Origin: Rothia dentocariosa ATCC 17931
Lineage (GTDB): Bacteria; Actinomycetota; Actinomycetes; Actinomycetales; Micrococcaceae
DNA: 64,000 bases
NCBI RefSeq assembly: GCF_000164695.2
Contig: NC_014643.1
Coordinates: 2,418,001-2,482,000 of the forward strand
Direction of reading: 5' to 3'
Positions 4,934-40,859 of this stretch are shown here, piece after piece (the stretch's first letter is position 1; each line of letters begins with the position of its first letter). The translations under genes were made by a program, and so were the position numbers. Under the pieces are notes generated by a model that was not told the DNA's origin, ran no database searches, and saw nothing but the letters and a program-made list of their open reading frames with translations.

Positions 4934-4954
4934 TAGGTATCGTTCCGCAGCACA

Positions 4955-5071: not shown

Positions 5072-5081
5072 CCCCCCCCCC
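5072..5081. repeat. homopolymer of ten C
   Basis: Ten consecutive C on the plus strand, about 315 bases before paralogue 6. Tracts of this length slip easily during replication. Confidence 0.9.
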
Positions 5082-5342: not shown

Positions 5343-5361
5343 TTAGGTAAGCTAAAACCAT
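5343..5361 (+). promoter_or_regulatory. possible IdeR/DtxR half-site before paralogue 6
   Basis: TTAGGTAAGCTAAAACCAT has a left half matching the DtxR/IdeR consensus (TTAGGTWAG), but the right half is poor. It overlaps the possible -10 of the gene. It may be chance. Confidence 0.25.
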
Positions 5362-5396
5362 CACCAACCCATCCCATGAGAGAGGACTACTTCATC

Positions 5397-13390: not shown

Positions 13391-13538
13391 ACCCTTGAAA
13401 ACCGTCCAGTACAACTTCCGAGGGGCTTCTATCACAGGTGGAGCTTTATCAAATAAATATGTTTTGATGATATTTTTTACTCCATGTCTCGGTATATAAT
13501 TGGAAGGTCAGAATCACCACAATCACCAAGGGACTTCA

Positions 13539-16943: not shown

Positions 16944-19900
16944 TTAGAAGGCTTCTGCAATAATTTCAGGAATGCGCTCCGGGTTCACCAGATCGGGATG
17001 GGTACCGTTCTTCAACGTGACGGTACGGAACGAGCCCACATGAAGCTCCCAGCCGTGCGCATCCAGATAGGGTTGATCGTCATGGCTCACTCCAATCAAT
17101 ACGACTTTTCCGCCAAAGTTAAGGTGGTTCGAGCCGCGCATAAGGGCGGCAGAGGCACGCATAGATTCCAAACATACTTCTAGCTTGTCTTCGGGTAGAT
17201 ATCCCATAGCCGACCCGGCATCTCGCAGTCGTTCGAGCGTCTGTGGCAAGTCAAGAACGGTCTGCGCCGATACTTCGGGAAGACCGCCCATACGTAAGAG
17301 GGCACGAAAGCTCTCTTGCTCGTCCGGTTCAGGAATCCCCTGCCACTGTTCGACGGGGTATGCATCCAGAAGCGTAACCTGTTGTACATCGTAACCGGCA
17401 GTCTCGGCAAGCGCGGCTACCTCGACGGCGGCAGTACCGCCAACGGACCAGCCCATCAGGGAAAATTGTGATGGAAGCTGACGTTCCTCAAGGGTCTCAC
17501 GAATACGCGCAAGATACCCCTCGGCGAGTTCACGAAGGCTCTGGGCGTAGCCAGCATTTGGGTTCGTGAATGCCTCATGTTGCAGTGCGTAAACCGACGG
17601 ATGCCCGGGTATGTGGGGCAGGTAGGCGGCATAGCACCATCCCAGACCGCCGGCGGGCGGCAGGATAAAGAGCGGTACGGTATTTTTCGATGTTGCGGAG
17701 TCCGTCGAGTCCGCCTCACGCAGAGGCAGAACCGGGGCGAACTCGATATCAGGAGAATCCTCGTTCAAGGCCGCAGCGATCCCCTTGACCGTGGGATTAG
17801 CGAAGAGGGCACCAATACTGAGCATCTTTCCAAGGTTTTCTTCAATCTTGGCAATGACGGAAAGTGCCGCGAGGGAGTTACCACCTGCTGCTAAGAAGTC
17901 TTCGGTTACGCCGAATTGTGAGCGTCCCAGCACACCCGCGATAATCTCGCTAATTTGCTGTTCTAAAAGTCCATGGGGGCCGTCTGCGGTGTTGGTATCA
18001 AAGGTAAACTCGATCTGTGCCAGGTTTTTGCGATCTGTCTTGCCTGAGGGGCTAACCGGGAACTGAGCCGTGGTGTGCCATAGGCGCGGTACCATATAGT
18101 CCGGCAAGGTGTTCTCACAATGTTGGCGAGCCTGAGCAACGATACGGTTGCGTTCTGTTTCAGAAACGTCACCTATCTCTAGGAACGCCGTGAGAGCAGG
18201 TTCGGGCGTCTTCGTGTAGAGCAAAACGACGGCGCTATGGACTCCCTCAACGTGGGAGAGCGTAGTTTCGATATCGCCAAGCTCTAGACGTTGCCCATGT
18301 AATTTTACTTGGTGATCGGTACGACCACGGTAGAGGATGACTCCGCGAGGGTTTTTGGCCAAGGTGCCGGGTTCCTGGTTTGTGGCGGTGAGGTTCCACT
18401 CGGCAAGATCGCCAGTGCGGTAAAGTCGCTCCCCTGTGGCGTTGTCCAGGATAAAGGCTTGTGCAGTTGCCTCGGGATTGTTCTGATACCCCGCAGCAAG
18501 CTGTGCACCCGAAAGGTAGAGTTCCCCTACGAATCCGGGCGGTATCGGCTGTAAAGCCTGGTCGAGAATACGGGTTTGGGTGTTCCAAACGGGCTGCCCG
18601 ATAGGAACAGTACTGCACTCTGGGTTTTGGGAGCTATCCCAGAAGGTAACATCGACGGCGGCTTCCGTAGGCCCATAAAGATTTAAAGGGTAAACACCCA
18701 TAATATTATGCGCGCTGAGAATCTGATCCTTCTGAAGTGCCTCGCCCGAGCAGATAAGATAGCGCACATGGCGTTGCTGCTCCCCCGATCCAAAACCTGC
18801 TTCGGCTAAGGTACGTTTTGCGGAAGGGGCCTCCAAGAAGGCGGTAAGCATCGTGGGTACGAAATGCAGACAGGTAACGTTCTGTTCGGCGATAACACGC
18901 GCCAGGTAGGCCGGATCCCGGTGCCCATCAGGAGCGGCAATAACGACGGCTGCCCCTTCCTGAAGCGGCCAATAAAGCTCCCACACATGAACATCAAACG
19001 AGATAGGTGTTTTATGTAAGATGCGGTCCCCCGCGCGGTCTTGTGTGGATGCGCCGACCGGAATCTGTGACTGCTGCCAACGTAACCGGTTATCAATGGA
19101 ACGATGACTAATCGCAACACCTTTGGGTCGCCCTGTCGAACCCGAGGTAAACAAGATATACGCGGTATCATCCAGTGCTGTGCCGATACCCGGGAATGTT
19201 TTTGCCTCGGGAACATCTACAAGGTTTAGAGGTTCTCCGACAGGATCAGTCAAGGAAGTAAATTCAAGTTGCTGCAGCCCGCACAAACTCTGCGTATTCG
19301 CCGGTTTTAACTCGGCCTCTGCAATAGGACTCAGCCCGGAACCATACACAAGCGCCGAACACTGCGCATCTTCCATCATGGAGCTCACACGTTCGGCCGG
19401 CAGATCCGGCAAAATCGGCACATAGACAAACCCTGCATAGAGCGCCGCATATAAGGCGATATATTGTTCAAGTCCTCGATGAAAACGTAGGCCTACAGCA
19501 GTTCCAGGGCACACGCCAGCTTCCAGCATCGCCTTTGCTAGGGCGCGGGCTCGCGCATCCAGCTCGTGATACGTGAGTACCTGCGAAAACTCATAGGCCT
19601 GCGGAGATTGCGGGGACAACGTACCGTCCTCGTCCGGCGCGCAGGCGTAGAGTGCGGGTTCGTTCGGGTAGCGTGTGAGCGCATCCTGAAAACGCTGAAG
19701 CAAAGTTTTATACTCTATCGGATGTGCGGTAGCGTTAAACGATTCCAGCAGCTCTACTTCATGCGGTAACGCAGTCGTCAGGGTATCCATCGACCGCTCC
19801 TCAAGGGCAGCCTGAGCCCAAGATTCCAACCAATTTTGCAGGTGCCGGGCGTGAAATTCTACGTGTTCGCGGGTATACAGGTTCGGGTTGGCATCAAGCT

Positions 19901-21176
19901 CCACAGAAATTGTGTGACCGCGCCCGGGTATGCCTCGCAGGGTAATGGTCATATCCGCAACTGGCCCCGCAGATATGTTATGAATATATCCCACAGAAGC
20001 AGGCGCGTTTTCGGTAGGTGCGCCTAGCGGTAAAGCGGCATCAAACGGTATAACATTGATCTGGGCGCCAAAGAGGCGGCTGTCATTGGACTGCGCTAAA
20101 CGTTCTAGGTCTTCTTGTCGAGCAAGCGGATGTGAGGCGTTTCGTGCATACTGGTTCTTTACGCTATCGAGTGCCTGTGCAATACTTCCCATACCTGAAA
20201 CCTGTACAGGAAGCACGTTCACGGCGGTGGTTCCAGTCTGAGCGCTGGTCTTGCCGAGAGCACGGGTTTCTGCGGGAACCTGAGCCCCAAATATACGGTT
20301 CATCTGGGGTACACCAAAAGCAGCGCTTCTATGCACACCAATACGGGCCAGATAAGACCCTACGGCACCGGTTACAGTAACGGGCCAGGAGGTTCCGTAC
20401 ATTTTGCCAATTTCCAGCATATCTCGCTGTAATTTATCAGGCAGGGTCAGTACCTCACGCAAGGCCTGTGGTGCCGGTGATGCACTTCGTGCTGCCAGCG
20501 ATGTATCGGGTTGGCTAAGTACTTCCACTTGCTCAGAAGTCCACAAGGCCAGGTCCTCTTCTCGGGCATGTTCGGCAGCGTGATCAGCCCGAAGAAGCTC
20601 CATTAGAGAGGCGCGTTTAACAGTAGGCAGAGGTTTTCCAGCGCTCAATGCACGATAGATAGCTGCTACGCGAGATAGACCGTTAAACGCCGCAAAACCG
20701 TCTGCCACCACATGGCTAAAGCTGTGGTAAACCCAGAGTTTACCCCCGTAGTATGTGACAGCGGAGCGTACCGTAACACCCGCATCGGTCCTCAATGGTT
20801 CGCTGATCAGCTCGGATGCCCAGCCACGCACCGCTGCCGGAACAGGATTCTGTTCTTCCGTTTCTTCCTGAATCTGGAGGGAAATTACCGGAAGTACCTC
20901 AAGATTAGTCAAAAACTCATCAAGTGGTATGACTCGTTGCTCAGGGCGTCCAGTCTGCACGCGCGTCTGCACCCGGAAACCTTCATTTTCACGATAGAGC
21001 TGAATAAATGCCTCACGCAGGTAATCAAGATTCGTCTCGGGCGGGCACTCCATGATCTCTGCCGTGTTATAGCAGGGATTTTTGGGATCGATAATAGCGG
21101 CAAGATAAATACCTTGAGCGCTTTTGGTCAGGGGAATCCAGTCATGTTTGGACCCACTATGCTCGGTGATGCTCAT
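16944..21176 (-). CDS. entF: EntF-like nonribosomal peptide synthetase (C-A-PCP-TE)
   Basis: A 1410-residue synthetase expected to join dihydroxybenzoyl groups to serine and release a cyclic tri-ester of the enterobactin type. Domains in order: condensation (SHVVADG near residue 155, with the catalytic second His kept and the first His replaced by Ser), adenylation (LFTSGSTGRPKGV near 675; FDVHVWELYWPLQEGA; LYGPTEAAVDVTFWD), peptidyl carrier (AAGGNSLAALSVI near 1098) and thioesterase (GWSVGG near 1242). Visible specificity positions DV-W, H and VD agree with the serine code of EntF. It follows the aryl carrier gene by about 80 bases. No MbtH gene is nearby. Serine specificity is inferred. Confidence 0.9.
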   Translation of the reverse strand: MSITEHSGSKHDWIPLTKSAQGIYLAAIIDPKNPCYNTAEIMECPPETNLDYLREAFIQLYRENEGFRVQTRVQTGRPEQRVIPLDEFLTNLEVLPVISLQIQEETEEQNPVPAAVRGWASELISEPLRTDAGVTVRSAVTYYGGKLWVYHSFSHVVADGFAAFNGLSRVAAIYRALSAGKPLPTVKRASLMELLRADHAAEHAREEDLALWTSEQVEVLSQPDTSLAARSASPAPQALREVLTLPDKLQRDMLEIGKMYGTSWPVTVTGAVGSYLARIGVHRSAAFGVPQMNRIFGAQVPAETRALGKTSAQTGTTAVNVLPVQVSGMGSIAQALDSVKNQYARNASHPLARQEDLERLAQSNDSRLFGAQINVIPFDAALPLGAPTENAPASVGYIHNISAGPVADMTITLRGIPGRGHTISVELDANPNLYTREHVEFHARHLQNWLESWAQAALEERSMDTLTTALPHEVELLESFNATAHPIEYKTLLQRFQDALTRYPNEPALYACAPDEDGTLSPQSPQAYEFSQVLTYHELDARARALAKAMLEAGVCPGTAVGLRFHRGLEQYIALYAALYAGFVYVPILPDLPAERVSSMMEDAQCSALVYGSGLSPIAEAELKPANTQSLCGLQQLEFTSLTDPVGEPLNLVDVPEAKTFPGIGTALDDTAYILFTSGSTGRPKGVAISHRSIDNRLRWQQSQIPVGASTQDRAGDRILHKTPISFDVHVWELYWPLQEGAAVVIAAPDGHRDPAYLARVIAEQNVTCLHFVPTMLTAFLEAPSAKRTLAEAGFGSGEQQRHVRYLICSGEALQKDQILSAHNIMGVYPLNLYGPTEAAVDVTFWDSSQNPECSTVPIGQPVWNTQTRILDQALQPIPPGFVGELYLSGAQLAAGYQNNPEATAQAFILDNATGERLYRTGDLAEWNLTATNQEPGTLAKNPRGVILYRGRTDHQVKLHGQRLELGDIETTLSHVEGVHSAVVLLYTKTPEPALTAFLEIGDVSETERNRIVAQARQHCENTLPDYMVPRLWHTTAQFPVSPSGKTDRKNLAQIEFTFDTNTADGPHGLLEQQISEIIAGVLGRSQFGVTEDFLAAGGNSLAALSVIAKIEENLGKMLSIGALFANPTVKGIAAALNEDSPDIEFAPVLPLREADSTDSATSKNTVPLFILPPAGGLGWCYAAYLPHIPGHPSVYALQHEAFTNPNAGYAQSLRELAEGYLARIRETLEERQLPSQFSLMGWSVGGTAAVEVAALAETAGYDVQQVTLLDAYPVEQWQGIPEPDEQESFRALLRMGGLPEVSAQTVLDLPQTLERLRDAGSAMGYLPEDKLEVCLESMRASAALMRGSNHLNFGGKVVLIGVSHDDQPYLDAHGWELHVGSFRTVTLKNGTHPDLVNPERIPEIIAEAF

Positions 21177-21760: not shown

Positions 21761-23476
21761 TTACTCCTGAGCCAGCATCTCAACTAGTTTAATGCGAAGT
21801 TCACGGCGTGAGATCTTACCCACGTTTGTGGTTGGCAGAGAGCTCAATACCTGTACACGTTCGGGGATCTTAAAATCAGCCAGCTTCTTTTCAGTGAAAT
21901 ACTCGTACATGGTACGGCGCGGATTCTCACCGAGCGATTTCCCAGCCTGAAGTACGACTATCAAGCAGACGCGCTCACCCACAGTTTCATCGGGCAGACC
22001 AAGGGCTACTGCATCCAAAATATCCGGATGCTCTAACGCCAACTCCTCAATTTCATCCACCGAGATCTTCTCACCGTTACGGTTAATCTGATCTTTAGCG
22101 CGTCCAGTAACTTCAAGATACTTTCCCGCGACTATACGCACGATATCGCCCGTGCGGTAGAAACCGTCTTCAGTAAAGCTGAGCTGATTAGCGTTTTCTT
22201 CGCGATAATACCCGCGAATCGTGTAGGGTCCGCGCGTGAGGAGGTGACCGCTCTGCCCTGGCTCGACCGGGTTATCCTGTTCATCCACCACGCGGATTTC
22301 ATCAGCCGAGCTGATAGGGTATCCCTGAGTATTCATGCGTATATAGGGTTCATCACGCAGACGAGTGTAATTCACCAACCCTTCCGCCATACCGAAGACC
22401 TGTTGTATGCTCACACCCAGGGTTGTTTCGAGCTCCCCCGCCACCGTCGGAGCAAGTTTCGATCCGCCCACCTGAAGCACGCGGAGCGAAGGCAGCTGCA
22501 CGTCACGTTTCTTTACAGACGCCAGCCAGGCCTGCGCCAAGGGCGGTACGAGTGAGGTGAAGGTAACGCCTTCCATCTGAATCAGGTTAAGCGCCGTCTG
22601 AGGGCTAGGATCAGCAGCAAATACGAGCTTACCTTGCACACACATTACGCCCAGGATTCCGGGCGAACTCATCGTGAAATTATGTGCCGCAGGAAGCACC
22701 ACCAACATGGTTGTGTTGTTATTCAGGTTGCAGATATCGGCGGAACCACGCACCGAGTACAAGTAGGCTGCGTGGGTGCGCGGAATTAGCTTTGACATAC
22801 CGGTTGTACCGCCGGAAAGCTGCAAAAATGCGATCTGCTCGCTTGCCAGAGTATTTTGGGTATTCTGCACAACACCGGGATGGAACGGTTCAGCCAGCTC
22901 AGCCTCGCTCAACGGGGTTACCGGGAGCGCAGCATCAAGGGCAATAGGCGGTTCTAGACCATCAGCACGCATCGTCTGTGCCACATCGTCGGCGAGCGCT
23001 GCAAAATCTGCCCCCGGAGTTTTCGAGGAAAATATATGCGCAGCGGCATCAGTGCGGGTTGCAAAATGGACAAGCTCACTCGTGCGGTGCTGTGGCAGAC
23101 AAAAGACCGGTAAGGCTCCTGCCCAAAAAATACCCATAAGATATATCAGGTATTCGGCGATATTTCCTAACTGTAAAAGCACACGATCGCCGGGTTGCAC
23201 CCCGGCATTCTCTAGGCGACGTGCTGCGGCACGAGCAGCCGCCTCCAGCTCTCCATAGCTCAGTCGAATCTGCTGCGGTTTGCCCTCTGCGTCGCTCTGT
23301 GCATGCGAAAATGCCACTAACGCCGGAAAATGTGGTTTAGCACGGCAGGCATCAAGCAGAAACTCGGGTATGGTCTGATCGATCCAGTACCCTTCTTCAC
23401 GGTAACGCCGTGCGAAATCCTCAGGAATCAGTGGGGTTTCGAGCAGTTCGGAGCGTTCCACAATCTGTTCGGTCAT
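21761..23476 (-). CDS. entE: 2,3-dihydroxybenzoate-AMP ligase (EntE/DhbE-like)
   Basis: A 571-residue standalone adenylation enzyme that activates 2,3-dihydroxybenzoate with ATP and loads it onto the aryl carrier protein. The opening RYREEGYWIDQTIPEF is typical of EntE/DhbE. Core motifs are LSGGTTGMSKLIPRTH, the aryl-acid pocket PAAHNFTMSSPG with the Asn that contacts DHB hydroxyls in this family, GMAEGLVNYTR, YRTGDIVR and the catalytic Lys region near TTNVGKISRREL. It starts 27 bases after the esterase gene and is the last gene of the fecC-fecD-fecE-fes-entE unit. The related salicylate ligases are the main alternative. Confidence 0.93.
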   Translation of the reverse strand: MTEQIVERSELLETPLIPEDFARRYREEGYWIDQTIPEFLLDACRAKPHFPALVAFSHAQSDAEGKPQQIRLSYGELEAAARAAARRLENAGVQPGDRVLLQLGNIAEYLIYLMGIFWAGALPVFCLPQHRTSELVHFATRTDAAAHIFSSKTPGADFAALADDVAQTMRADGLEPPIALDAALPVTPLSEAELAEPFHPGVVQNTQNTLASEQIAFLQLSGGTTGMSKLIPRTHAAYLYSVRGSADICNLNNNTTMLVVLPAAHNFTMSSPGILGVMCVQGKLVFAADPSPQTALNLIQMEGVTFTSLVPPLAQAWLASVKKRDVQLPSLRVLQVGGSKLAPTVAGELETTLGVSIQQVFGMAEGLVNYTRLRDEPYIRMNTQGYPISSADEIRVVDEQDNPVEPGQSGHLLTRGPYTIRGYYREENANQLSFTEDGFYRTGDIVRIVAGKYLEVTGRAKDQINRNGEKISVDEIEELALEHPDILDAVALGLPDETVGERVCLIVVLQAGKSLGENPRRTMYEYFTEKKLADFKIPERVQVLSSLPTTNVGKISRRELRIKLVEMLAQE

Positions 23477-23503: not shown

Positions 23504-24808
23504 TTAGGGGTTGGGCATAAGAATGCGATTCAGCGCGGGTATGATAGCTCCACGCCAGCAGGCGTAGTCGTGGCCGCCGTTGAATACAGTGTAGTTCAGG
23601 TGTGTGTCCACGGATTCGAGTTCCTGAATAAAACGCTGATGTGGCGGCAGCAGAATCCATTCCTGCTCACCTACCTCGATCTCAAGGTGAAGGTGGGACA
23701 GACGGTGCAGTTCATTGGCTTTACGCAGCTGTGAGAGTTTATCGAAAACCTGAGGCTGCCACAGCGAAGACGATTGAGCGATTGCCGCTCCGAAAGACTC
23801 TGGGCGCGAGAAAACCGCCAGCAGAGAAGACAGCCCGCCTAAGGATTGTCCGTTGATGATGATATCCTGTGGCTCTGGCCGCAGCCCGTGATGACGCTTC
23901 AAATGAGGGAGCGCTTCTTCCACAATATAGTCGGCTATAGGGCTGTCTCCGTTAAGCTCTTGCCAGCGGCGTTCTCGGCCGCCCGAGTGCAGAAAGAAGA
24001 CATTCATATCTGGAATACGCCCGGCGGCACAGGCTCGGTTGAGCATATGCTCCATACCGTGCCCGTACCAGACTTCACCGTCGAAGAGGATAAAGAGCGG
24101 AGAATCAGGATGTGGGTTTCCTACTCGTCCCAACAAATATTCATGCCCGTCCGCAGTAGTCATCCAGTGCGGTTCAGGAAGGCTGTCGAGTTCCTGCTGG
24201 GTGAGCAGAAACTCATGAACCGGCGCATCGGCAAGCTCAACCACGCCCATACAACGGCCAATACGGTTGCAGACGGTCTTCGGGTTAAGCGGGTCGCCTT
24301 CACCAGAATCGAGAGCGGTGCGCAGTGTCACCTGATCGTCCTCCCCCAGCCAGATCGGGCGTTCCCCTGGCGGTGTGGGAATAAAGTTATAGGAAGCCCG
24401 CCAGTCGGTGCGCATCTGGAAGCTCAGCTCCCACCAATCGGTGCCTGGAATACGTTCCATCAGAGACAACGGCAGGTTTTTCTCATCTGTCAGTCTATTG
24501 ACAAAAATGAGAACCTGCTCTGCCGTGGCATGCCGATACAGGAATGTGACAATGCGTTCGTTCTCATTCGCTGTTCCGTCGTCATAGTAAGCCTGCTCTA
24601 TAAGTGGAGTCCCATCCGCTACGATCTCTGTGATGCGGGCGTTAAGTTCTTGCGCGTCCACGGCTTCGTTTACTATGCGCGTCATCAGCGGGCTGGGTAC
24701 GCGCGGGGCAGGTGTTGGGCGCGGGGTTTTAGGCGGCATAGGACGCGCCATGATCTTTGACTTGAGATTCTGTGTGGTTTTATGTGGAAGGGTCTCAAAA
24801 TCACCCAT
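23504..24808 (-). CDS. fes: enterochelin esterase-like protein (Fes)
   Basis: A serine hydrolase of 434 residues expected to cut ferric enterobactin inside the cell so iron can be released. The ATG at 24808 is chosen because AAGGAG lies six bases upstream; the open frame begins at 24844 inside the preceding gene. An N-terminal Pro-rich stretch is followed by the Fes N-terminal domain (DWWELSFQM, WLGEDDQ) and the esterase domain with the nucleophile in NGQSLGGLSSL and a terminal GGHDYACWR carrying the catalytic His. No signal peptide is present, in line with cytoplasmic action. It lies between the importer ATPase and the DHB ligase. Confidence 0.92.
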   Translation of the reverse strand: MGDFETLPHKTTQNLKSKIMARPMPPKTPRPTPAPRVPSPLMTRIVNEAVDAQELNARITEIVADGTPLIEQAYYDDGTANENERIVTFLYRHATAEQVLIFVNRLTDEKNLPLSLMERIPGTDWWELSFQMRTDWRASYNFIPTPPGERPIWLGEDDQVTLRTALDSGEGDPLNPKTVCNRIGRCMGVVELADAPVHEFLLTQQELDSLPEPHWMTTADGHEYLLGRVGNPHPDSPLFILFDGEVWYGHGMEHMLNRACAAGRIPDMNVFFLHSGGRERRWQELNGDSPIADYIVEEALPHLKRHHGLRPEPQDIIINGQSLGGLSSLLAVFSRPESFGAAIAQSSSLWQPQVFDKLSQLRKANELHRLSHLHLEIEVGEQEWILLPPHQRFIQELESVDTHLNYTVFNGGHDYACWRGAIIPALNRILMPNP

Positions 24809-24818
24809 AAAAGGCTCC

Positions 24819-25670
24819 TTAGTGACCTTCGCGGGCGGCGGCAATTGCGTCCGCGGCAGTAGTAATCTCTTGGTGAGCTGCCGGAACTACCAGTGGTGTT
24901 CCGGTACAGGGGTCATCGCATATAACAGATTCTAGGTCGAAAACTTCCTGAATTAGCTCGGCAGTGACAATTTCCTGAGGATCACCCTGAGCGATAATCC
25001 TACCTTCCTTCATGAGCACCGCATGAGTGGCGTATCGGAAAGCTAGGTTCAGATCGTGTAGCACAACCGCAACGGTATGCCCCTCAGAGTGGAGCTTCTT
25101 GGTAAGGTTTAGCACCTCAATCTGGTGGGTAATATCCAGGTAGGTGGTTGGCTCGTCCAACAGAATCAAAGGCGTCTGCTGGGCAAGGGTCATGGCAATC
25201 CACACGCGCTGACGCTGACCGCCGGAAAGCGCCTCAATAGGACGTTCGGCCAGTTCCAACACGTTCGCGGCTTCCATAGCCTCAACGCAGGCCGCCTCAT
25301 CTTTCTCAGACCAGGAACGCAGAAGGGATTGATGCGGGTACCGGCCGCGTGCCACAACATCCGCCACGGTCAACCCGGTGGGTGCCTCCGGCGTTTGAGG
25401 AAGCATGGCGAGAATCTGCGCGATGGAGCGGGATTTCATCTTTGAAAGCGGCAGACCATCAAGAAAGACCTTTCCGCCTTTGAGAGGATTCACACGCGCC
25501 AGAGCTTTGAGTAAGGTAGATTTACCGCAGGCGTTAGGACCCAAAATAACGGTAAGCTCACCCTCAAGCACCTTGAAGTCTATACCGCTGAGCACTGTGT
25601 GGTCGCCATAGGCTACGACCATGTCTTCGCCTGCGAGTCGGCTTTCGCTAATCTCTGCACAAGCCTTCAC
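24819..25670 (-). CDS. iron-siderophore ABC transporter ATPase (FecE/FepC family)
   Basis: ATPase of 283 residues that powers import of the ferric siderophore. It has Walker A LGPNACGKSTLL, the Q-loop LPQTPEAP, the signature LSGGQRQRVWIA, Walker B LILLDEPTTYLD and the switch His in VVLHDLNLAFRYA. The GTG start overlaps the stop of the permease gene by one base (TAGTG), indicating translational coupling. The C-terminal part is about 20 residues longer than usual and Ala-rich. The substrate is inferred from the siderophore genes around it. Confidence 0.95.
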   Translation of the reverse strand: MKACAEISESRLAGEDMVVAYGDHTVLSGIDFKVLEGELTVILGPNACGKSTLLKALARVNPLKGGKVFLDGLPLSKMKSRSIAQILAMLPQTPEAPTGLTVADVVARGRYPHQSLLRSWSEKDEAACVEAMEAANVLELAERPIEALSGGQRQRVWIAMTLAQQTPLILLDEPTTYLDITHQIEVLNLTKKLHSEGHTVAVVLHDLNLAFRYATHAVLMKEGRIIAQGDPQEIVTAELIQEVFDLESVICDDPCTGTPLVVPAAHQEITTAADAIAAAREGH

Positions 25671-26785
25671 TAGCTCTTCTTCCTTTCAAGGTAAATCAGG
25701 TAAATCAGATATAAACCGCCCAGGGCGCCGGTAACCACACCGACCTGTAGGGTACGGCCGGGAATTGCAAACCTTCCAATAAGGTCTGAAGCCAGCACCA
25801 TCAACGCACCCATGAGGGCAGATCCGAAAAGGGTAACGCCGCCGCTTCGCCCCAGAGTTTTCACGATATGCGGGGCAGCAAGTGCCACGAATGCTATGGG
25901 ACCGGTAGTCGCGGTGGCTAGGGATACGAGAAGCACGCCGAGGAAGAGCGCACACACCCGATAAGCGTTGACATTCACGCCTAGTCCTGACGCCACGCTA
26001 TCGCCAAACCGAATGGCCCCGAGAGGGCGTACCAGGGCGAGAAGCGCGGGAACTGTGACGATCAGAAAAATCATCAGTGTAATCGTACGCGGCCACGACA
26101 TATCATCGAGAGAACCAGCGAGCCAGGATGCCGCCGTCTGCGCCTGAGTCAGTGATGCCCGAACTACTAACAGTGAGTTGAACGCCGCAAGAGTCGATCC
26201 TACACCAATACCCACAAGCACTAGGCGGAATCCGCGTAAACCTGTATGTCGAGTCAGTAACCACACCGTAATGGATGTTGCGATACCGCCAATGAGGGCA
26301 CCGATAGCAACTTCTACTGGACCAGAGTCGAAGACGATAATCTGCAGGAGTGCACCAGTTGCAGCACCGTGTGTAAAGCCGATAATATCCGGTGAGCCCA
26401 GCGGGTTACCCGAGATTACCTGGAACAGCGCCCCTGAAAGCCCTAAAGCTGCGCCCACAAGCAGAGCTGCCACGATGCGCGCTTCACGCTTCTGTACTAA
26501 GACCACTGTGATGCGTTTACCCCGCCCAACGAGGGCATTAATGACGTCCATCGTCGTCACTTTGTATTCGCCCTGTTGCAGCCCCCACAGGCTAAGTGCC
26601 ACGATGAGAGCGATCAGCACAATGTACAGCGTCAAAACCCGCCAGGGAACCTGCGCCTGAATGAGTCCGCGTGAGTTAAGAACAAGCCTGCCAGCCAAGT
26701 CGTGACCGCGCCGTGCACCTCGAGGGCGCGAAGATTCCTGTTTCTGAGTCTTGAGGTTCGTCGCCTTAGTCTGTGTATCTGTCAT
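25670..26785 (-). CDS. iron-siderophore ABC transporter permease (FecD/FepG family)
   Basis: A 371-residue FecCD-family permease with about nine to ten membrane segments after a charged N-terminal tail of roughly 45 residues (many Lys, Arg and Gln). Typical family blocks are LGLSGALFQVISGNPLGSPD, GFTHGAA and the coupling region TGPIAFVALAAPHIVK. Start and stop codons overlap the neighbouring genes by single bases on both sides, so it is translated as part of one unit with the FecC-like and FecE-like partners. Confidence 0.95.
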   Translation of the reverse strand: MTDTQTKATNLKTQKQESSRPRGARRGHDLAGRLVLNSRGLIQAQVPWRVLTLYIVLIALIVALSLWGLQQGEYKVTTMDVINALVGRGKRITVVLVQKREARIVAALLVGAALGLSGALFQVISGNPLGSPDIIGFTHGAATGALLQIIVFDSGPVEVAIGALIGGIATSITVWLLTRHTGLRGFRLVLVGIGVGSTLAAFNSLLVVRASLTQAQTAASWLAGSLDDMSWPRTITLMIFLIVTVPALLALVRPLGAIRFGDSVASGLGVNVNAYRVCALFLGVLLVSLATATTGPIAFVALAAPHIVKTLGRSGGVTLFGSALMGALMVLASDLIGRFAIPGRTLQVGVVTGALGGLYLIYLIYLERKKS

Positions 26786-27846
26786 CAGAGAGCCTCCACC
26801 TTACGACGAGTCATCAGGAATAGGAAGAGGGGTGCCCCTGCAAGGGTAGCGATAATTCCTACCTGAGTTTCCTGCGGGTGCTCCGGGGTCGCCATAATAA
26901 CACGGGCTAAGACATCGGACATGAGCAGCCAGACAGGACCTAGAAGCGCAGAGCCGTAGTTAACCCAGCGTACGTCATTACCCATAATGGCACGCACGAC
27001 GAAGGGAACCGCTAAACCGACAAATGAGATCGGCCCGATAGCAGCGGTTGCCGCACCTGCAAGAAGCGTTACGGCAAGAAGTGTGAGGTTTTGGGTCCGA
27101 TATACCCGTACGCCTAGGGATATAGCGGCTTCTTCACCCATACTTAGCGCGTTGATCGAGGGTGCTACAAAAAACGCTAAAAGGAGACCCACGAAGATCA
27201 CGGGGGCAATAGCCTGTGCGACTGATATATCACGCCCTTCTAAAGACCCGGTAACCCACACACGAAATTCGTCAAAAGCATCTTGGTTCGAGAGCATAAG
27301 TCCCTGTGCTACAGCAGCAAGGGCGGCAGAGATAGCCACACCGGCGAGAGCTAATTTAACAATTGAGCCGTCTCGACCACGCCCGAGGGTATAGACGACA
27401 GTAGCGGCTATAGCGCCCCCAACAGCAGCGGCAATCATATACTGCCAGATGCCGAGAACACCAAAAAGTACAACAGTGAGGATGACTGCAACGGCGGCAC
27501 CGGCGTTGACACCCATCAGACCAGGTTCGGCGAGTGGGTTACGGGTGAGTGACTGCATGAGTGATCCGGCAACTGCGAGGGCCGCCCCGCAGGCTATCCC
27601 GATGAGTGTCCGCGGAATGCGCTGCTCAAAGATAATGGCATGACTTTCGGGGGTTGATTGCCCCGCTAAGGTTTCTACGATGCTGTCGGGGGAGAGTGAT
27701 TTTAGCCCAATAGTTAGCGAGGCAAGAATACTCACGCCGAGCAGAACCGCGAAAATAATAAGCCAGGTTATTCGTCGGCCGTTTTTTTCGTTGCGCCCAC
27801 TTTTCATGGTTCGTGAGGCTCCTGTGCGTTCCAAGGTTACGCTCAA
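26785..27846 (-). CDS. iron-siderophore ABC transporter permease (FecC/FepD family)
   Basis: A 353-residue permease partner of the FecD-like protein. The TTG start has a perfect AAAGGAG five bases upstream, which supports it over later codons. Family blocks include AVAGSLMQSLTRNPLAEPGL, GVNAGAA and TAAIGPISFVGLAVPF. It is the first gene of the importer-esterase-ligase unit, and a gap of 203 bases separates it from the surface-protein gene upstream. With the lipoprotein at 31694-32767 these genes make a complete importer. Confidence 0.95.
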   Translation of the reverse strand: MSVTLERTGASRTMKSGRNEKNGRRITWLIIFAVLLGVSILASLTIGLKSLSPDSIVETLAGQSTPESHAIIFEQRIPRTLIGIACGAALAVAGSLMQSLTRNPLAEPGLMGVNAGAAVAVILTVVLFGVLGIWQYMIAAAVGGAIAATVVYTLGRGRDGSIVKLALAGVAISAALAAVAQGLMLSNQDAFDEFRVWVTGSLEGRDISVAQAIAPVIFVGLLLAFFVAPSINALSMGEEAAISLGVRVYRTQNLTLLAVTLLAGAATAAIGPISFVGLAVPFVVRAIMGNDVRWVNYGSALLGPVWLLMSDVLARVIMATPEHPQETQVGIIATLAGAPLFLFLMTRRKVEAL

Positions 27847-28049: not shown

Positions 28050-28985
28050 CTATGGACGCTTCCGAATAATCAGTACAGCAATAGCACCGATAATAGCAAC
28101 GCCAAGCACAGATACGCCCAACCATGGGAATTCCTGCCCGTACGTTACCGTTGTGTTGCTGGTTTTATGGCTATCTGCCTGTGTCTTTGCGGAGCTAGAG
28201 GCCGACGCGCTGCTCTTCGCACTGCTGGATGCAGAGGGGCTGGCGGTCTTCTTCTGTTCGCCCTTGTTAGTGTTCTGGTCGTTTTTCTGATCGGAGGAAT
28301 CTTTATTCCCGCCCTCGTCAGCCTCAGCGTTCAAACGATCATACTCTTCTTTAGAGATAGGGTTGCCATCAGCATCAAGATAGACGGTCTCTTGCTCAGA
28401 TGAACTACCGTCCTGTGCCGAGTTACCGCCGTTATCTTCGGAACCATTATTACCCGAACCTTCAGATCCGGCGTTATTGTTGGACGAAGAATCGGAGCCG
28501 CCCTTAGAGGACCCTCCGTTATTTGACGAGCCGCCATTATTGCCGCCCCCGTTATCGGATTCTCCAACGGTAAATACAGGGCTCTTATTGGTGGTACCTG
28601 GTTCCTGTCCCATCTTTTTTCCGTTGGCATCGTATTTAGCTGCACCGGGCGCCAAAAAACGCAAAGTATGTTCTCCAGAGCCAACGGATTCTGGTAAAAC
28701 AAAGGATCCGTTCAGATTACCCTTGCTATCAGCCTGTTGCTGATGTACACGACCTTCATCGTCGATCTTGACCGTCACGGTAGAGTTGGGTGGAAAACCG
28801 GATAGCGTAAAGTTCACTACTCCGCCGGGAGTCACATGAGGACTTACAGTTGAGCTAGTTCCTGGAGAGTTGTTAGATGCACCTCCGGGTGGGATCGCAT
28901 TCGCAGCTCCCATCCCCAGGCCAAGACTAAGGGATATTGCCGCGCAGGCAGTGAGCGCCTTTGATACTGTCTTTGTGGTTCGCAT
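28050..28985 (-). CDS. secreted surface protein with C-terminal membrane anchor, unknown family
   Basis: A 311-residue protein with a Sec signal (ending near AANA), a domain of about 100 residues with beta-sandwich character (PGGVVNFTLSGFPPNSTVTV, then SGEHTLRFLAPG), a Ser/Gly/Asn-rich linker of about 100 residues, an Ala/Ser-rich stretch and a terminal membrane helix followed by RKRP. No LPXTG motif is present, so it is membrane- rather than sortase-anchored. It lies between the importer permeases and the larger surface protein, on the same strand, which suggests a role in siderophore or iron capture at the envelope. I do not recognise the domain. Confidence 0.8.
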   Translation of the reverse strand: MRTTKTVSKALTACAAISLSLGLGMGAANAIPPGGASNNSPGTSSTVSPHVTPGGVVNFTLSGFPPNSTVTVKIDDEGRVHQQQADSKGNLNGSFVLPESVGSGEHTLRFLAPGAAKYDANGKKMGQEPGTTNKSPVFTVGESDNGGGNNGGSSNNGGSSKGGSDSSSNNNAGSEGSGNNGSEDNGGNSAQDGSSSEQETVYLDADGNPISKEEYDRLNAEADEGGNKDSSDQKNDQNTNKGEQKKTASPSASSSAKSSASASSSAKTQADSHKTSNTTVTYGQEFPWLGVSVLGVAIIGAIAVLIIRKRP

Positions 28986-29023: not shown

Positions 29024-29058
29024 GGTTCCCTCCCCCACCGACGGTGTGGGAGGGAACC
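29024..29058 (-). terminator. strong hairpin between the two surface-protein genes
   Basis: GGTTCCCTCCC and GGGAGGGAACC form an 11-base stem with an inner CACCG/CGGTG pairing. No T-run follows on the minus strand, so it may be an attenuator or an mRNA-stabilising hairpin rather than a full stop. Confidence 0.6.
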
Positions 29059-29104: not shown

Positions 29105-31522
29105 TTACGCCCTCTTGCGGAAGGTTAGTGCAAGCACCAAGATAATCAGACCCGCTATAGAGAGCAACACGTTATTTGCATTGTTCGCGAACCAGCGCGA
29201 GAAGCCGCTAAGCTCAGCGCCAATGATATTGGGGGCGCTATTGCTGTCGGACTGTGTTGCCGCGGTAGTTGCATTGCCTTGGGTACCGTTTTTACCGGGC
29301 GCGGCCTTGGCCGTGTGAGTTTTCTTGGGTGCGCTCTTGGCGTGGGCACCGCTGTTACTACCGTTCTTTGCGGCAGCTTTAGCGCGTGCCTGCACACGGT
29401 TGATGAGCGTATCGTTTTCCAGTTCAGCAGCAGCCCCAAGAGAAGCCTGCTTCGTAATGGTGCCTTGACGGGCTGTAAAGTTGATTCCGGAGCTCTGGGT
29501 GGGAATAGGTGCCACAGAGCCATATCCTGATCCGTTGTTACCCGACCCGGCATCATAGCCGCCTGCGATTGAACCATTGTTAGAGGCGTGATTACTACTT
29601 ACAGGGGCTAACGTGGAGCCGTCAGCGCCAGCAATCGTAACGGACAACGTCACCGAATGCTGCTCGTCGCCCTTCTGTAAACTACCGGTCAGGAACGTGA
29701 TATCGTGAACGGTGCCCACGCCCCATTTATCGCTATTTGGGAACGGCAAAGTATAGGTAAAATTGCCATCAGCATCAGCCTGAATAATGGCCACAACACC
29801 ACGAGACGCATAGTCTTTACCGTTATAAACCACGGCACGGTCAAGTTTGATGTCACCGCTATCGTATTTAACGGCGATAACGCTATAGGGGCTCCATCCA
29901 GAACCGTTAACGACGATTCCCTGACCGTGGGTCACAGTCTTAGGACCGGTTACGGTAGCATTACCGTCGGACGCCGTCTGAGTCTCAACGACAGGGGCGG
30001 GATTAGGTGCAGGTGCGTTATTTTGTACACCCTGGTTCGCAGCCCCACCCTGATTATCTGCTGGGCTAGGCTGAGCGCCGGCGTTACCGTCTTTCTGATG
30101 ATCCTGTGCAGAAGGTTCAGTAGGTTGAGGCTCTAGTTTCTTGGTGTCATTAGCTGAAGGGTTACCTGGCTGCTGACCATTATCCTTTGGATCCTCGGCA
30201 GTGGCAGGAGCATCACCTATGGTCACCTTGAGAGTTGCCGAATGCTTCGCAGCGTTGCCCTTTTGCAAACTGCCACTCAGGAAATTAATCTCGTGCTGTG
30301 AACCATCCGTCCACTTCTCAAACCCGGTTGAATTCTCAGCGTTCGGGAACGGCAGCTTTGCGGTGAATGTACCATCAGGATTAGCCGTAACGACGGCTAC
30401 AACACCGCGTCCAGCCCAATCATTACCGTCATATGTTACGGGATTCGTAGACTTGACTTCACCGCCGTCGTACTTCACGGCGATCACAGAACCGGTACCG
30501 TCGGCATTCTTCCAGCCGGTACCGCTAACCTCGATTTCCTGACCATTTTTCGCGTATTTCACACCGGTCACGGTAACGCCGTCGGACTCAACAGTCTGCG
30601 AGTTCTCAGAAGCGGCAGGAGCAGGATTATTTTCTGCCGGTTGAGGAGCTGGTTTCTCATCTGCTTTAGGCTGCTTCTCTGCTTCGTTCTTAGCAGCGTC
30701 GTTAGCCTTGGGCTGTACCGGAGTTTCCTCAGCTTTAGGAGTTTCTTCTGCCTTCGGAGTATCAGCAGGAGTCTCATCCTTAGCTACCTCATCAGTCTGA
30801 GGCTGCTGTGCAGGCGTTTCTTCAGCCTTTGGAGCTTCTGCAGGGGCCTCATTCTTGGGGGTTTCTTTCACCTGAGGCTGTTCAGGAGTCTCCTCCTTTG
30901 GAGTTTCTTCTACCTTCGGAGTTTCGGCTGCCGGAGCTTCCTCGCTCACGGTCACCTTGTGAGTTGCTGAGTGCTGCTCATCCCCTTTCTGCAGACTGCC
31001 GCTCAGGAAATTAATCTCGTGTTCTGAGCCGACGGCCCAGTTAGCATTGGTGGGGAAAGGGATGGTTGTGGTGAAGTTACCGTTCGCGTCTGCCTTAATA
31101 ACCGCTATAACACCGCGTGCTGACAGATCCTTACCGTCGTGCGTCACCGGTTCTGTGGGTTTAACATTACCGCCATCATATTTCACAGCGATAAAGGTAT
31201 TAGCTCCCCACCCCGAGCCACTAATCTCAAGACCCTGACCGTTCTTAATAATCGCGGATCCGGTAACAGTAGCAGTATCGTTTGCTTTCGCGGCGGGTTG
31301 TTCTACCTTACCTTGAGGCATTCTCTCGTTGCCTTCACCCGGAACCTTCACAGCAGGATCCTGTGCCTGCACATTATTACCGGCTTGGGCGGGGGTAGCA
31401 TCCGGAGTTTGGCCCGGATCCTCAAGAGCGGTTGCGGGAGTTGTTACGCCGGGTGCAAGCAAAGCACCCGCAAGCGCTACCACGGCACTGTAGCGGGCGG
31501 CATGATGTGCGTGCTGTGTCAT
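29105..31522 (-). CDS. large surface protein with three repeats of an unknown domain
   Basis: An 805-residue protein. The ATG at 31522 gives a normal Sec signal (to about TPATA); an in-frame TTG at 31555 would add 11 residues. Three copies of a domain of about 110 residues lie near 84-190, 310-437 and 520-634. Each has NGQ-x-x-x-SGSGW, IAVKYDGG, a SRGVVAVI-like block, an LPFPN block and a final FLSGSLQKG. A Glu/Pro/Lys-rich linker with repeated EETPK-like units separates copies 1 and 2, and a Gln/Asn/Pro-rich one separates copies 2 and 3. A membrane helix and RKRA end the chain; no LPXTG is seen. It is not a recognisable HtaA or NEAT domain. Position within the siderophore locus suggests an envelope iron-capture role, which is inference. 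Confidence 0.85.
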   Translation of the reverse strand: MTQHAHHAARYSAVVALAGALLAPGVTTPATALEDPGQTPDATPAQAGNNVQAQDPAVKVPGEGNERMPQGKVEQPAAKANDTATVTGSAIIKNGQGLEISGSGWGANTFIAVKYDGGNVKPTEPVTHDGKDLSARGVIAVIKADANGNFTTTIPFPTNANWAVGSEHEINFLSGSLQKGDEQHSATHKVTVSEEAPAAETPKVEETPKEETPEQPQVKETPKNEAPAEAPKAEETPAQQPQTDEVAKDETPADTPKAEETPKAEETPVQPKANDAAKNEAEKQPKADEKPAPQPAENNPAPAASENSQTVESDGVTVTGVKYAKNGQEIEVSGTGWKNADGTGSVIAVKYDGGEVKSTNPVTYDGNDWAGRGVVAVVTANPDGTFTAKLPFPNAENSTGFEKWTDGSQHEINFLSGSLQKGNAAKHSATLKVTIGDAPATAEDPKDNGQQPGNPSANDTKKLEPQPTEPSAQDHQKDGNAGAQPSPADNQGGAANQGVQNNAPAPNPAPVVETQTASDGNATVTGPKTVTHGQGIVVNGSGWSPYSVIAVKYDSGDIKLDRAVVYNGKDYASRGVVAIIQADADGNFTYTLPFPNSDKWGVGTVHDITFLTGSLQKGDEQHSVTLSVTIAGADGSTLAPVSSNHASNNGSIAGGYDAGSGNNGSGYGSVAPIPTQSSGINFTARQGTITKQASLGAAAELENDTLINRVQARAKAAAKNGSNSGAHAKSAPKKTHTAKAAPGKNGTQGNATTAATQSDSNSAPNIIGAELSGFSRWFANNANNVLLSIAGLIILVLALTFRKRA

Positions 31523-31593: not shown

Positions 31594-31651
31594 TCAAAAG
31601 CATTTTGTGTATCTTCAGCGTATTCGTCGTTGAGTATTCAAGAGCCTAGAT

Positions 31652-31678
31652 GCGGCACCTCCTCAAGCGAGGTGCCGC
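31652..31678 (-). terminator. hairpin after the siderophore-binding lipoprotein gene
   Basis: GCGGCACCTC and GAGGTGCCGC form a perfect 10-base stem with a 7-base loop, 15 bases past the lipoprotein stop. No T-run follows, so read-through into the surface-protein gene is possible. Confidence 0.6.
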
Positions 31679-31693
31679 GTCTAAAATCTAATC

Positions 31694-32767
31694 CTACTGT
31701 CCCTGATTATTGTTTTGATTTTCGAGTAGTTTGCTGCGAACATCCGCAACAATACCGTTCATCAACAGGGGACCACCGGTTGAGGTCCATTTAGAACCCT
31801 CAACCGTAATAATATGTTCGTTCTGGTAGGCTTTCAAATTCGTGAAGCCAGATGTGGCCTCTGCCTTCTTCAAAACTTCTGATGCACCATTGGCGCTAGC
31901 ATCACCTTGAACATTCGGGTTCTTCTGGCTTGCGCCACCCAAAGTACCGATAAACATGTAGTCTGCGTCAATATCCGAGAGGTTCTCCAAAGAGACCGGC
32001 TCTGAGTGACCCTGCCCTTCACGATCCTGTGCCGGGGGACGCTGCAGCCCCAAATCTGAAAGCACCTGACCGGCAGGGAGTTCCTTCAAGATCAGTGCGG
32101 GGCCGTTACCTGCCCAACGCACGATCGAGAAGGTCTTATCACCGTACAGAGGTTCTAGCTCCTTCTTGAGCTGCTCAGTAAGTTTTTCGTAGTCTTCCTC
32201 AACCTTCTTACCCTGGTCTACCAGGTTAAGAGCATCCGCTACCCTCTCAAAGTTGATGGTCCAATCACCGCCAGCGTATCCGGTATACACCACGGGAGCA
32301 ATATCCTGCAGAGTCTTGTATGCCTCTGAACGTTTATCCACGCCTGTGGAATCAGCCAGAATAAGGTCGGGCGTGAGGGAGGCAACCTTATCGTAGTTAA
32401 CCTCAGACACAGAACCGACAAGTGTAACGTCGTCTCCTACCTTATCTTTGAGGTAGTTAGGCACAGTCTGCTGACCGCGACCAGAAATAGCGCCTACAGG
32501 CTTAACACCAAGTGCGAGTACCGCGTCCAAAGTAGGTTCTGAGAGAACTACAACGCGCTGCGGTTTAGTAGGTACCGTAATTTCTTCCTCATCTACATTC
32601 TTAACGACGCGAGTCTCACTTTCGGGAGATTCCGAAGAGTCAGAAGTCGTAGATTCCTGGCTGCATGCTGCAAGTGTAAATGCAGTGCCCGAGGCAAGCG
32701 CCATACCTAGAAAGTTACGGCGATTTACCATGAATTGAGCTAGTGACGCTGGGTGTTCAAAAGACAT
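31694..32767 (-). CDS. ferric siderophore-binding lipoprotein (FecB/FepB family)
   Basis: A 357-residue substrate-binding protein that captures the ferric siderophore outside the membrane and delivers it to the FecCD-type permeases. The ATG has TTAGGAG six bases upstream. The signal contains a twin-arginine-like NRRNFLG and a lipobox LAAC (Cys 35). The mature protein has the class III binding-protein layout: PQRVVVLSEPTLDAVLALG, then DKVASLTPDLILAD, and a C-terminal lobe with SDIDADYMFIG. It is the first gene of the island in the direction of transcription and has an IdeR-like half-box at its promoter. Confidence 0.94.
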   Translation of the reverse strand: MSFEHPASLAQFMVNRRNFLGMALASGTAFTLAACSQESTTSDSSESPESETRVVKNVDEEEITVPTKPQRVVVLSEPTLDAVLALGVKPVGAISGRGQQTVPNYLKDKVGDDVTLVGSVSEVNYDKVASLTPDLILADSTGVDKRSEAYKTLQDIAPVVYTGYAGGDWTINFERVADALNLVDQGKKVEEDYEKLTEQLKKELEPLYGDKTFSIVRWAGNGPALILKELPAGQVLSDLGLQRPPAQDREGQGHSEPVSLENLSDIDADYMFIGTLGGASQKNPNVQGDASANGASEVLKKAEATSGFTNLKAYQNEHIITVEGSKWTSTGGPLLMNGIVADVRSKLLENQNNNQGQ

Positions 32768-38870: not shown

Positions 38871-40784
38871 CTATTTTGCGGGTTCGGGCGCTGAAACCTT
38901 CACGGAATCAAAATTACCCATGTAACGCATCATATAGGCTGCCATAGCATCGCGCTTGACCGAGTCATGCGGACGGAACGTACTGTCAGGCCAACCGGTG
39001 GAGAGCTTCGAGAACTGGAACCACGAAATTTCCTTGACAAAGGGGCTTCCCGAAACATCCGTAAAGGTTGCTTTCTGCTGAACTTCCGGGGATCCTGCGG
39101 CACGATAGAAGAAGGCCGCCATAGCCTCGCGGTTTATTGAGTCTTCAGGACGGAAGGTACCGTCTTCCCAACCTGTCGTAATACCGGTTGCCTTCAGCCA
39201 CGCAATTTCCTTATAGAAGGGGTGGGTTGTAGGAACATCACTGAAAGGAGATTCCGCGGGTGCCTCAAATTCAGGAGAACCCGCCAGGCGATATAGGTAC
39301 GCTGCCATTGCTCCACGTTCGATGCTCTCCAAGGGATGGAATCCGCCATCGGGGTAACCGGTTGTGATGCTCTTCTCCCCCAGCTTGATGATGTCGTTCT
39401 CAAAGAGGTTGCCAGCAATATCGTTATACGACACGTTGGTCAGGGTCCTGTTATCGCCGCCCGTCAGAGGGGCAGGGTAACCCGCAAAGGTTTCCTGCTG
39501 CGGGGTGATCTGCTTGACCTCTACCTCTGGATTTTCCACTGTCATATTCTCCGGGGTAACCTTCACCTTGGTAATAGAATCAGCAGTTTCTTCTTTGGAA
39601 GTTAGCGTTCCCTGGGCGTAATCCATACCGAAGGGAATGGTCGTATCGGGGGCAAAACCATCCTTATTAGCGATATAAACCTCACCATCAGCACCCAAGG
39701 TAATATCGTTGGCACCCTTAGATGCTGACTGCACTTCTCCAATAAGACGATCAGCGCGACCATCAATCACGCCAACCTTACCGGTAGCAAAATCCGTAAC
39801 GTATACGAGGTCACGATCTTCATCATTGACAAGCGAAAGTGCCTGCTTACCGAAAGGAATAGACTTCTTATATTCTCCAGTCTTGAGGTCATACACAGTC
39901 ACCCCGGAATTACCCTTAGACTCGCCGCTCTGACGGTCATAACTGCCTTGTGCAGAGACGTAGATCTCCTGTTCAGAAATATCAATGGCAATATCGGAAG
40001 GAAGAACATCAACGCCTTCGACATCGGCGTGGGTCTGAATTTCCTGCAAAACCTTAAAAGTGCTCGTGTCAATCACATAGATTTTGCCGGTGGTGCGCTC
40101 GGGAACGTAAAGTTTACCATCATGAATAGTGGTATTCATACTGATATAGCGCTTACCTTCTTCGTCTCCACCCACTTTGATCTTCTCGACCTTATGGGTC
40201 TTCAGATCAATGGCAGATACGAAGTAACGACCCGTCACAAATGCTTTGCCGGAGGCAGCATCCACCTTTACCTCGCGCGGATGCTCGATCCAACTTTCAT
40301 CTCCCTCTTGAGCTCCGTAGTTGGTCCACAAGAGATTGAGATTATTCTGATCGTACACAGACACAGCGTTATCACGAGTATTCGTAACCCAAATGGTGCC
40401 ATTCTCATCGTCAACATCAATACCAAAGGCACCCAAATTCTTATACCCAGCGTTGTATCCGGTACCGGCTCGGGTGATAGGTAAGGTGGCTATTGCTTCT
40501 ATCTGGAGAGTCTTCTCATCCAGACGCGCAATAGTCGATACGGACATATCGCGGTTAGAGCCAGCAATGAAGATTTTGCCGTTCTTTGAATGGCGAATCT
40601 GATACTGCCCTGGAATCCCCTGCACCTGTTGAGCCTGAGCAGCAGTAATCTGCTGCGGGGCAGGAGACTCTACCGCAAAGGACGCGGGCACTGCAAAAGG
40701 TGCCCCCATGAGCGACATCGAAAGTGCCCCAACGGTAGCTGCTTTGAAAGGCTTACGCTGAGCTTTAGTGAGCAAAAGAACCAT
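38871..40784 (-). CDS. secreted YncE-like beta-propeller with C-terminal SLH repeats
   Basis: A 637-residue exported protein. The ATG has GGGAG seven bases upstream. A Sec signal (about 38 residues) is followed by about 330 residues of propeller blades of the YVTN/YncE type (IFIAGSNRDMSVSTIARLDE, GTIWVTNTRDNAVSVYDQ, VYVTDFATGKVGVIDG). The last 190 residues hold three S-layer-homology units with the recurring pattern TGYPDGGFHP, TGWEDGTFRP, TGWPDSTFRP and AMAAYLYR-type helices, which bind cell-wall polymers. E. coli YncE is Fur-repressed, and this gene has an IdeR-type box 57 bases upstream of its start, so iron-dependent expression is likely. The ligand is unknown. Confidence 0.9.
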   Translation of the reverse strand: MVLLLTKAQRKPFKAATVGALSMSLMGAPFAVPASFAVESPAPQQITAAQAQQVQGIPGQYQIRHSKNGKIFIAGSNRDMSVSTIARLDEKTLQIEAIATLPITRAGTGYNAGYKNLGAFGIDVDDENGTIWVTNTRDNAVSVYDQNNLNLLWTNYGAQEGDESWIEHPREVKVDAASGKAFVTGRYFVSAIDLKTHKVEKIKVGGDEEGKRYISMNTTIHDGKLYVPERTTGKIYVIDTSTFKVLQEIQTHADVEGVDVLPSDIAIDISEQEIYVSAQGSYDRQSGESKGNSGVTVYDLKTGEYKKSIPFGKQALSLVNDEDRDLVYVTDFATGKVGVIDGRADRLIGEVQSASKGANDITLGADGEVYIANKDGFAPDTTIPFGMDYAQGTLTSKEETADSITKVKVTPENMTVENPEVEVKQITPQQETFAGYPAPLTGGDNRTLTNVSYNDIAGNLFENDIIKLGEKSITTGYPDGGFHPLESIERGAMAAYLYRLAGSPEFEAPAESPFSDVPTTHPFYKEIAWLKATGITTGWEDGTFRPEDSINREAMAAFFYRAAGSPEVQQKATFTDVSGSPFVKEISWFQFSKLSTGWPDSTFRPHDSVKRDAMAAYMMRYMGNFDSVKVSAPEPAK

Positions 40785-40840: not shown

Positions 40841-40859
40841 TTAGGGTAGGAGTACCTAA
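40841..40859 (-). promoter_or_regulatory. IdeR/DtxR-type iron box
   Basis: The plus strand reads TTAGGGTAGGAGTACCTAA; on the minus strand TTAGGTACTCCTACCCTAA. It agrees with the palindromic DtxR/IdeR consensus TTAGGTTAGSCTAACCTAA at about 16 of 19 positions (allowing A or T at position 7), with both half-sites good. It lies 57-75 bases before the YncE-SLH start, next to AT-rich promoter-like DNA. Confidence 0.7.

Follow-up and report, generated by a model that had tools for sequence, protein, structure and literature searches.

A three-repeat surface protein associated with probable catecholate-siderophore uptake genes in Rothia dentocariosa

The single-contig genome of Rothia dentocariosa ATCC 17931 (2,506,025 bases) carries, on the minus strand at positions 29105..31522 of the 64,000-nucleotide stretch analyzed here (hereafter, the window), a gene for a three-repeat surface protein of 805 amino acids (aa), counted from its ATG codon; what does such a protein do among genes for iron uptake? 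Its membership in an uptake system is well supported, because the gene order recurs, the gene shows the same presence and absence as a siderophore-binding lipoprotein gene in 35 genomes, and iron-box-like sites occur in relatives. We favor the reading, at a probability of about one half, that the repeat protein is an accessory, membrane-tethered surface part of an operon for catecholate-siderophore uptake that some of the Actinomycetota have, and that it probably binds or hands over ferric siderophore. Ligand binding is the part that we infer: tethered domains that resemble small-molecule carriers and co-occur with a siderophore lipoprotein are best explained as serving capture or hand-over outside the membrane.

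Linkage to siderophore uptake genes and iron boxes

The repeat gene belongs to a minus-strand run that extends from 32767 down to 16944. The run begins with a siderophore-binding lipoprotein (31694..32767; Peripla_BP_2, with a twin-arginine-like start and a lipobox assigned by eye), followed by the repeat protein, a second surface protein (28050..28985), and two FecCD-type permeases (26785..27846 and 25670..26785), whose best NCBIfam matches, both under cut-off, are an Fe(3+)-siderophore permease and an iron-enterobactin permease, respectively. Downstream are an importer ATPase of the FecE/FepC type (24819..25670; under NCBIfam cut-offs), an enterochelin esterase-like protein (23504..24751; Enterochelin_N above the Pfam cut-off, NCBIfam 180.6 of 222 bits), a 2,3-dihydroxybenzoate (DHB)-AMP ligase-like, or EntE-like, protein (21761..23476; NCBIfam 570 bits, cut-off 724), and an EntF-like peptide synthetase (16944..21176; NCBIfam 448 bits, cut-off 2400). 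Between the first four genes there are gaps of ~170, ~120, and ~200 bases. The first-pass annotation placed the repeat gene between the lipoprotein and the importer; it does lie directly behind the lipoprotein gene, whereas the gene for the second surface protein precedes the first permease.

The best solved relatives of the lipoprotein are YfiY (E 4e-34) and YclQ (4e-22), followed by HtsA, FeuA-type, and enterochelin-binding proteins; YfiY, YclQ, and FeuA are siderophore binders. If the neighbors are a guide, the esterase-, DHB-ligase-, and EntF-like genes would point to an enterobactin-type catecholate rather than to haem. Of the two cargoes initially proposed, siderophore or haem, only the former is thus suggested by the neighbors, and haem is unsupported. 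As reported in PMC7190385, similar enterobactin clusters occur in all R. dentocariosa genomes examined there, and R. dentocariosa M567 makes catechol in culture.

Across 45 named loci from relatives, several of them cut by contig ends, the repeat gene is accompanied by the lipoprotein in 35, the second surface protein in 37, a FecCD permease in 34, and the ATPase in 34; the esterase (22), an EntE- or EntF-like gene (13), and a beta-propeller gene (19) are found less often. The linked genes of a catecholate-siderophore operon (siderophore-binding lipoprotein, FecCD permeases, ATPase, and esterase) recur together in relatives, and 25 of the 45 loci have the genes for the lipoprotein, the repeat protein, and the second surface protein in unbroken succession on a single strand. 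Four loci (L122, L124, L126, and L129) have none of the lipoprotein, second surface protein, permease, or ATPase. The record titles name Rothia, Kocuria, Curtobacterium, Nesterenkonia, Leucobacter, Gulosibacter, Microbacterium, Cellulomonas, Nocardioides, Micropruina, Propionicicella, Corynebacterium, Buchananella, Peptidiphaga, Tessaracoccus, Pseudonocardia, and others, including one Coriobacteriales bin. Since the search profile was built from repeats of operon genes, linkage among these loci is enriched by choice.

A less selected survey of the family identified matches at E ≤ 0.01 in 14 of 295 genomes, and a linked copy is present in 13 of these, R. dentocariosa among them; the fourteenth match was weak and did not stand. 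At the level of the class, 8 of 394 genomes matched at E ≤ 0.001, four strongly and four weakly (E 3e-5 to 5e-4); the neighbor check covered the four strong ones, all of which have a linked copy. Several surveyed genomes coincide with named loci, and the surveys and the locus set therefore overlap rather than being independent. In the genus itself, 18 of 35 genomes were identified with a strong lipoprotein match (E ≤ 1e-100), the same 18 with a repeat match (E ≤ 0.001), and the other 17 with neither, counts that are uncorrected for relatedness; lipoprotein-family matches of lesser strength (1e-20 to 1e-31), seen in both groups, were taken as paralogues. Based on coordinates, the lipoprotein and repeat genes adjoin in 16 of the 18, the exceptions being G081, with the two genes on different contigs, and G692, with its repeats elsewhere. 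The esterase tracks less well: it has a match at E ≤ 1e-80 in 14 of the 35 genomes, among them G147, which lacks both lipoprotein and repeat, and it is missing from 5 of the 18.

The window's only convincing iron box, a DtxR/IdeR-like site (TTAGGTACTCCTACCCTAA; 40841..40859, minus strand), lies not before the repeat gene but 56 bases before a separate minus-strand gene at 38871..40784, which encodes a beta-propeller protein with three S-layer-homology stretches. In relatives, several propellers encoded beside the operon carry the repeat domain, and the one that was scanned (L087) has a sortase-type end, so that the beta-propeller protein may well be the system's third surface component. The best site before the lipoprotein gene in the window matches 12 of 19 positions. 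In the 45 loci (753,629 bases), 47 sites have at least 14 of 19 matches to the DtxR consensus, vs. 3.9 expected from shuffled bases, and 33 of the 47 fall in zones preceding a lipoprotein, propeller, or repeat gene, which together make up 6.0% of bases; some loci are close relatives (several are R. nasimurium), so the sites are not all independent. This position-based count replaced one made per gene start (a site with at least 14 matches preceded 8 of 29 lipoprotein genes, 12 of 47 repeat genes, 7 of 18 propeller genes, 3 of 140 further genes of the system, and 19 of 306 other genes), which was noisy because the gene starts were guesses and divergently oriented genes have an upstream region in common. 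A genome-wide count of the box pattern in R. dentocariosa gave two places, which is not significant alone, and the reversed control also matched. A near-perfect DtxR-like box is present at C1:2073281-2073299 (L156) of this genome, between genes that we take, by eye, to encode a quinol nitric oxide reductase and an acyltransferase. Iron control thus has good support in the relatives, whereas for the R. dentocariosa repeat gene the support is only indirect. Together, the neighborhood survey, the co-occurrence with the lipoprotein, and the boxes in relatives bear out the proposed link to iron uptake.

Architecture and predicted fold of the repeat protein

The 805-aa protein is laid out as a signal peptide, three beta domains, a Ser/Ala/Lys-rich stalk, and a C-terminal membrane helix. 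A TTG at 31555 is a possible alternative start; however, the ATG is used by three of the four homologues displayed, and the remaining one is a fragment. Residues 1-32 (31427..31522) form a probable signal peptide, assigned by eye from the sequence and not by a predictor. At the other end, inspection by eye and a motif scan identified a hydrophobic helix (29120..29170) followed by RKRA, in agreement with the anchor initially described. An LPxTG-type sortase signal was found neither in this protein nor in the 89 homologues scanned. These are predicted features of a secreted, membrane-anchored protein.

Repeat 1 (residues ~83-195; 30938..31276), repeat 2 (residues 312-437; 30212..30589), and repeat 3 (residues 519-633; 29624..29968) were delimited by alignment and are 112, 126, and 115 residues long. 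Repeats 2 and 3 have 60% and 54% identity to repeat 1, and the alignment of all three has 48 invariant columns, far above chance, which confirms the first-pass description of three copies of ~110 residues; the conserved blocks vary slightly (SGSGW, SGTGW, and NGSGW; IAVKYDGG twice and IAVKYDSG; FLSGSLQKG twice and FLTGSLQKG). The description of the linkers as Glu/Pro/Lys-rich holds for the first, between repeats 1 and 2, whereas the second, between repeats 2 and 3, is rich in Ala, Pro, Asn, and Gln. Among 77 homologues, some from metagenome assemblies and those with a named source coming from R. dentocariosa and Rothia sp., 68 have three repeats, 8 have two (one of these, P0077, being a fragment), and 1 has four.

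Although the fold was at first described as unknown, structure prediction gave a confident model of repeat 1 (predicted local distance difference test, pLDDT, 95.7), and the domain is, in this high-confidence prediction, an immunoglobulin-like beta sandwich that bears its closest resemblance to members of the neocarzinostatin family (PF00960; macromomycin, neocarzinostatin). That ranking comes from a second structure aligner; the Foldseek matches were mixed (antibodies, SoxYZ, ester-bond adhesin domains), with none at E ≤ 0.001. Sequence searches of Pfam, NCBIfam, PHROGs, and PDB found nothing above cut-off for the repeat protein. Against PF00960 (gathering cut-off 25), repeat 1 scored 12.6 bits and the whole protein had no match, and a precomputed PF00960 label is present on 4 of the 77 homologues.

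Further comparisons used an alignment of 84 repeats, comprising 81 of 153 listed and the three of the window. A PDB profile search with the three repeats alone listed 2mcm at E 0.63, whereas the 84-repeat profile listed fucosidase pieces at 0.051 and weaker others, with 2mcm missing. In per-member Pfam scans of the 84 repeats, AglB_L1 matched 9, CFSR 8, TIG 7 (at E ≤ 1, best 0.011), and PF00960 6 (at E ≤ 1, best 0.0019); because several unrelated beta families match about as often as PF00960, sequence alone cannot place the repeat. Likeness to the TIG/IPT profile was low (hhalign probability 7.3%). The comparison alignments took 18 of 30 PF00960 loci and 12 of 20 TIG loci fetched. Around 30 other loci of PF00960 members, one lipoprotein-like and two ATPase-like matches were found, but only ~1.5 kb on either side was scanned, so this neither shows nor excludes iron links.

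With the neocarzinostatin family, the repeats share the predicted fold, the domain length (113 vs. 112-113), and the best structural and profile matches; they differ in falling under the Pfam cut-off, lacking cysteine, occurring in tandem, being membrane-tethered, and lying beside siderophore genes. Members of this family are free carriers of enediyne with two conserved disulfides. None of the three R. dentocariosa repeats has a cysteine, and the last repeats of most relatives retain a single one (GWCN). Of the 84 repeats, 68% have Arg at position 89 and 80% have it at position 102; R. dentocariosa has it at neither.

The second surface protein (IPPGGA..PGTSS) has a domain related to the repeat and modeled with a similar fold, although in structure comparison the unrelated 6xi3 (8.8) was within 1 of most neocarzinostatin rows. 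It alone has a weak match to the PGS-family Ig-like domain (NF058592; 19.7 bits vs. cut-off 45), which is absent from the three-repeat protein. Most relatives' second surface proteins keep a cysteine pair that the R. dentocariosa copy lacks. Two strong stem-loops without a T run flank the repeat gene, one with 15-nt arms in the gap behind the lipoprotein gene (31647..31683) and one with 17-nt arms in the gap between the two surface-protein genes (29024..29058); they could stabilize or partly stop the transcript, possibly giving unequal expression of the surface parts. Promoter and terminator scans were near chance level. Elsewhere in the window, 328-6008 holds a tandem array of six small, related lipoprotein-like genes with a common EHPAQNVP-type motif, and two adjacent genes at 13500-16851 presumably encode McrB- and McrC-type restriction proteins, based on inspection by eye.

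Explanations for the role of the repeats

In the siderophore-handling role that we favor, flexible linkers would hold the repeat domains out through the wall, and the domains would bind a ferric catecholate siderophore, or the lipoprotein carrying that siderophore, so that its local concentration rises. The siderophore would then pass from the repeats to the lipoprotein and onward to the FecCD importer, with the esterase freeing iron inside the cell; the related second surface protein may take part in the same hand-over. Tentatively, we extend this to a wall-spanning siderophore relay of neocarzinostatin-like domains in Actinomycetota, a possible counterpart of the haem Isd and HtaA systems, with tandem domains, two tethered proteins, and a beta-propeller, for which the enediyne-carrier fold would have been recruited.

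Three observations weigh most heavily against a siderophore-handling role. First, single repeat-type domains occur as paralogues away from iron genes, two of them in the R. dentocariosa genome (L084/L155; C1:261339-261650 and 579407-579694); in three genomes, such paralogues (L082, L083, and L155) adjoin genes that we take, by eye, to be VTC-domain or DUF4956 genes. The first-pass annotation would have yielded to an immunoglobulin-like domain with homologues lying apart from iron genes: such a fold was predicted, but most loci examined carry iron-uptake genes, and some paralogues do not. Second, the repeat domains carry a net negative charge. Third, R. dentocariosa is atypical, with three copies of one repeat type where relatives have position-specific types.

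The same charge and repeat make-up are consistent with a scaffold or spacer, which we consider unlikely but the most probable of the rivals. Here the domains would bind no iron compound and would serve importer efficiency by holding or spacing another part, be it the lipoprotein, the second surface protein, or the wall; immunoglobulin-like repeats are common spacers, and the copy number varies among homologues. However, many residues are kept among the 84 repeats (G20, G66, and G93 are invariant, and D34, P75, H86, S94, and D99 occur in at least 93%), more than a spacer seems to need. Position-specific types also argue against it in a tree of 79 repeats from 19 of the 45 loci and the window, for which the tool warns of few columns for the number of rows. 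The next-to-last repeats of operon proteins from several families form one clade (100/98), and the last repeats form one group together with five others (91/91, a value that the tool does not rate as firm). Those of R. dentocariosa, all three, cluster in a single clade (98/92) that lies among the genus's first-position and propeller-borne repeats, and R. aeria retains three distinct types; read most simply, the tree suggests loss of two types in R. dentocariosa and multiplication of the first. Given this altered make-up, R. dentocariosa is not the best species for learning the system's role.

Capture of haem or another iron compound, in the manner of NEAT or HtaA proteins, is improbable. Like the Isd/NEAT and HtaA surface haem proteins, the repeat protein has repeated surface domains encoded beside an ATP-binding cassette (ABC) importer of iron compounds, and haem relays of such shape are known; unlike them, it lacks a sortase signal, and its 805 aa have no Pfam match to a NEAT or HtaA domain up to E 10. 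The lipoprotein is nearest to siderophore binders, an enterochelin esterase-like gene is part of the run, and haem was dropped as a cargo for want of a haem family match and in view of the neighboring siderophore genes. About equally improbable is an adhesin or host-protein binder (e.g., of transferrin) sitting by chance in an iron island. The immunoglobulin-like fold, the surface position, the mouth habitat, and the adhesin domains among the weak Foldseek matches fit such a protein, but the same genes are also grouped in records of Nocardioides, Microbacterium, Nesterenkonia, Micropruina, and Cellulomonas, genera found mainly in soil or water. Least probable is an old neighbor of unrelated function linked through common ancestry only: the uncorrected counts and the paralogues elsewhere would allow it, but the gene group is kept across several families while its flanks differ (e.g., beside ribosomal-protein genes, identified by eye, in G280, G118, and G233), and iron-box-like sites accompany it.

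Significance for Gram-positive siderophore uptake

A literature search found no description of the repeat surface-protein family, although most subscription journals were outside the search and absence from print is not shown; a text search of PMC13293324, on siderophore-binding proteins of Gram-positive bacteria, gave no mention of surface, anchored, accessory, or hypothetical, of unknown function, or of Rothia. Compared with FeuABC/YfiYZ-type importers, the R. dentocariosa operon has the same lipoprotein, two FecCD permeases, and ATPase, and it adds an esterase and two surface proteins. Accounts of siderophore uptake in Gram-positive bacteria usually involve a lipoprotein and an importer. 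The repeat defines a domain family outside the curated libraries scanned, and as a small, well-folded domain it suits a direct binding test. An iron-linked pair of surface proteins recurs in one operon in mouth commensals and environmental actinobacteria, and if the favored role is true, it would constitute an unrecognized step between the medium and the lipoprotein in Gram-positive siderophore uptake.
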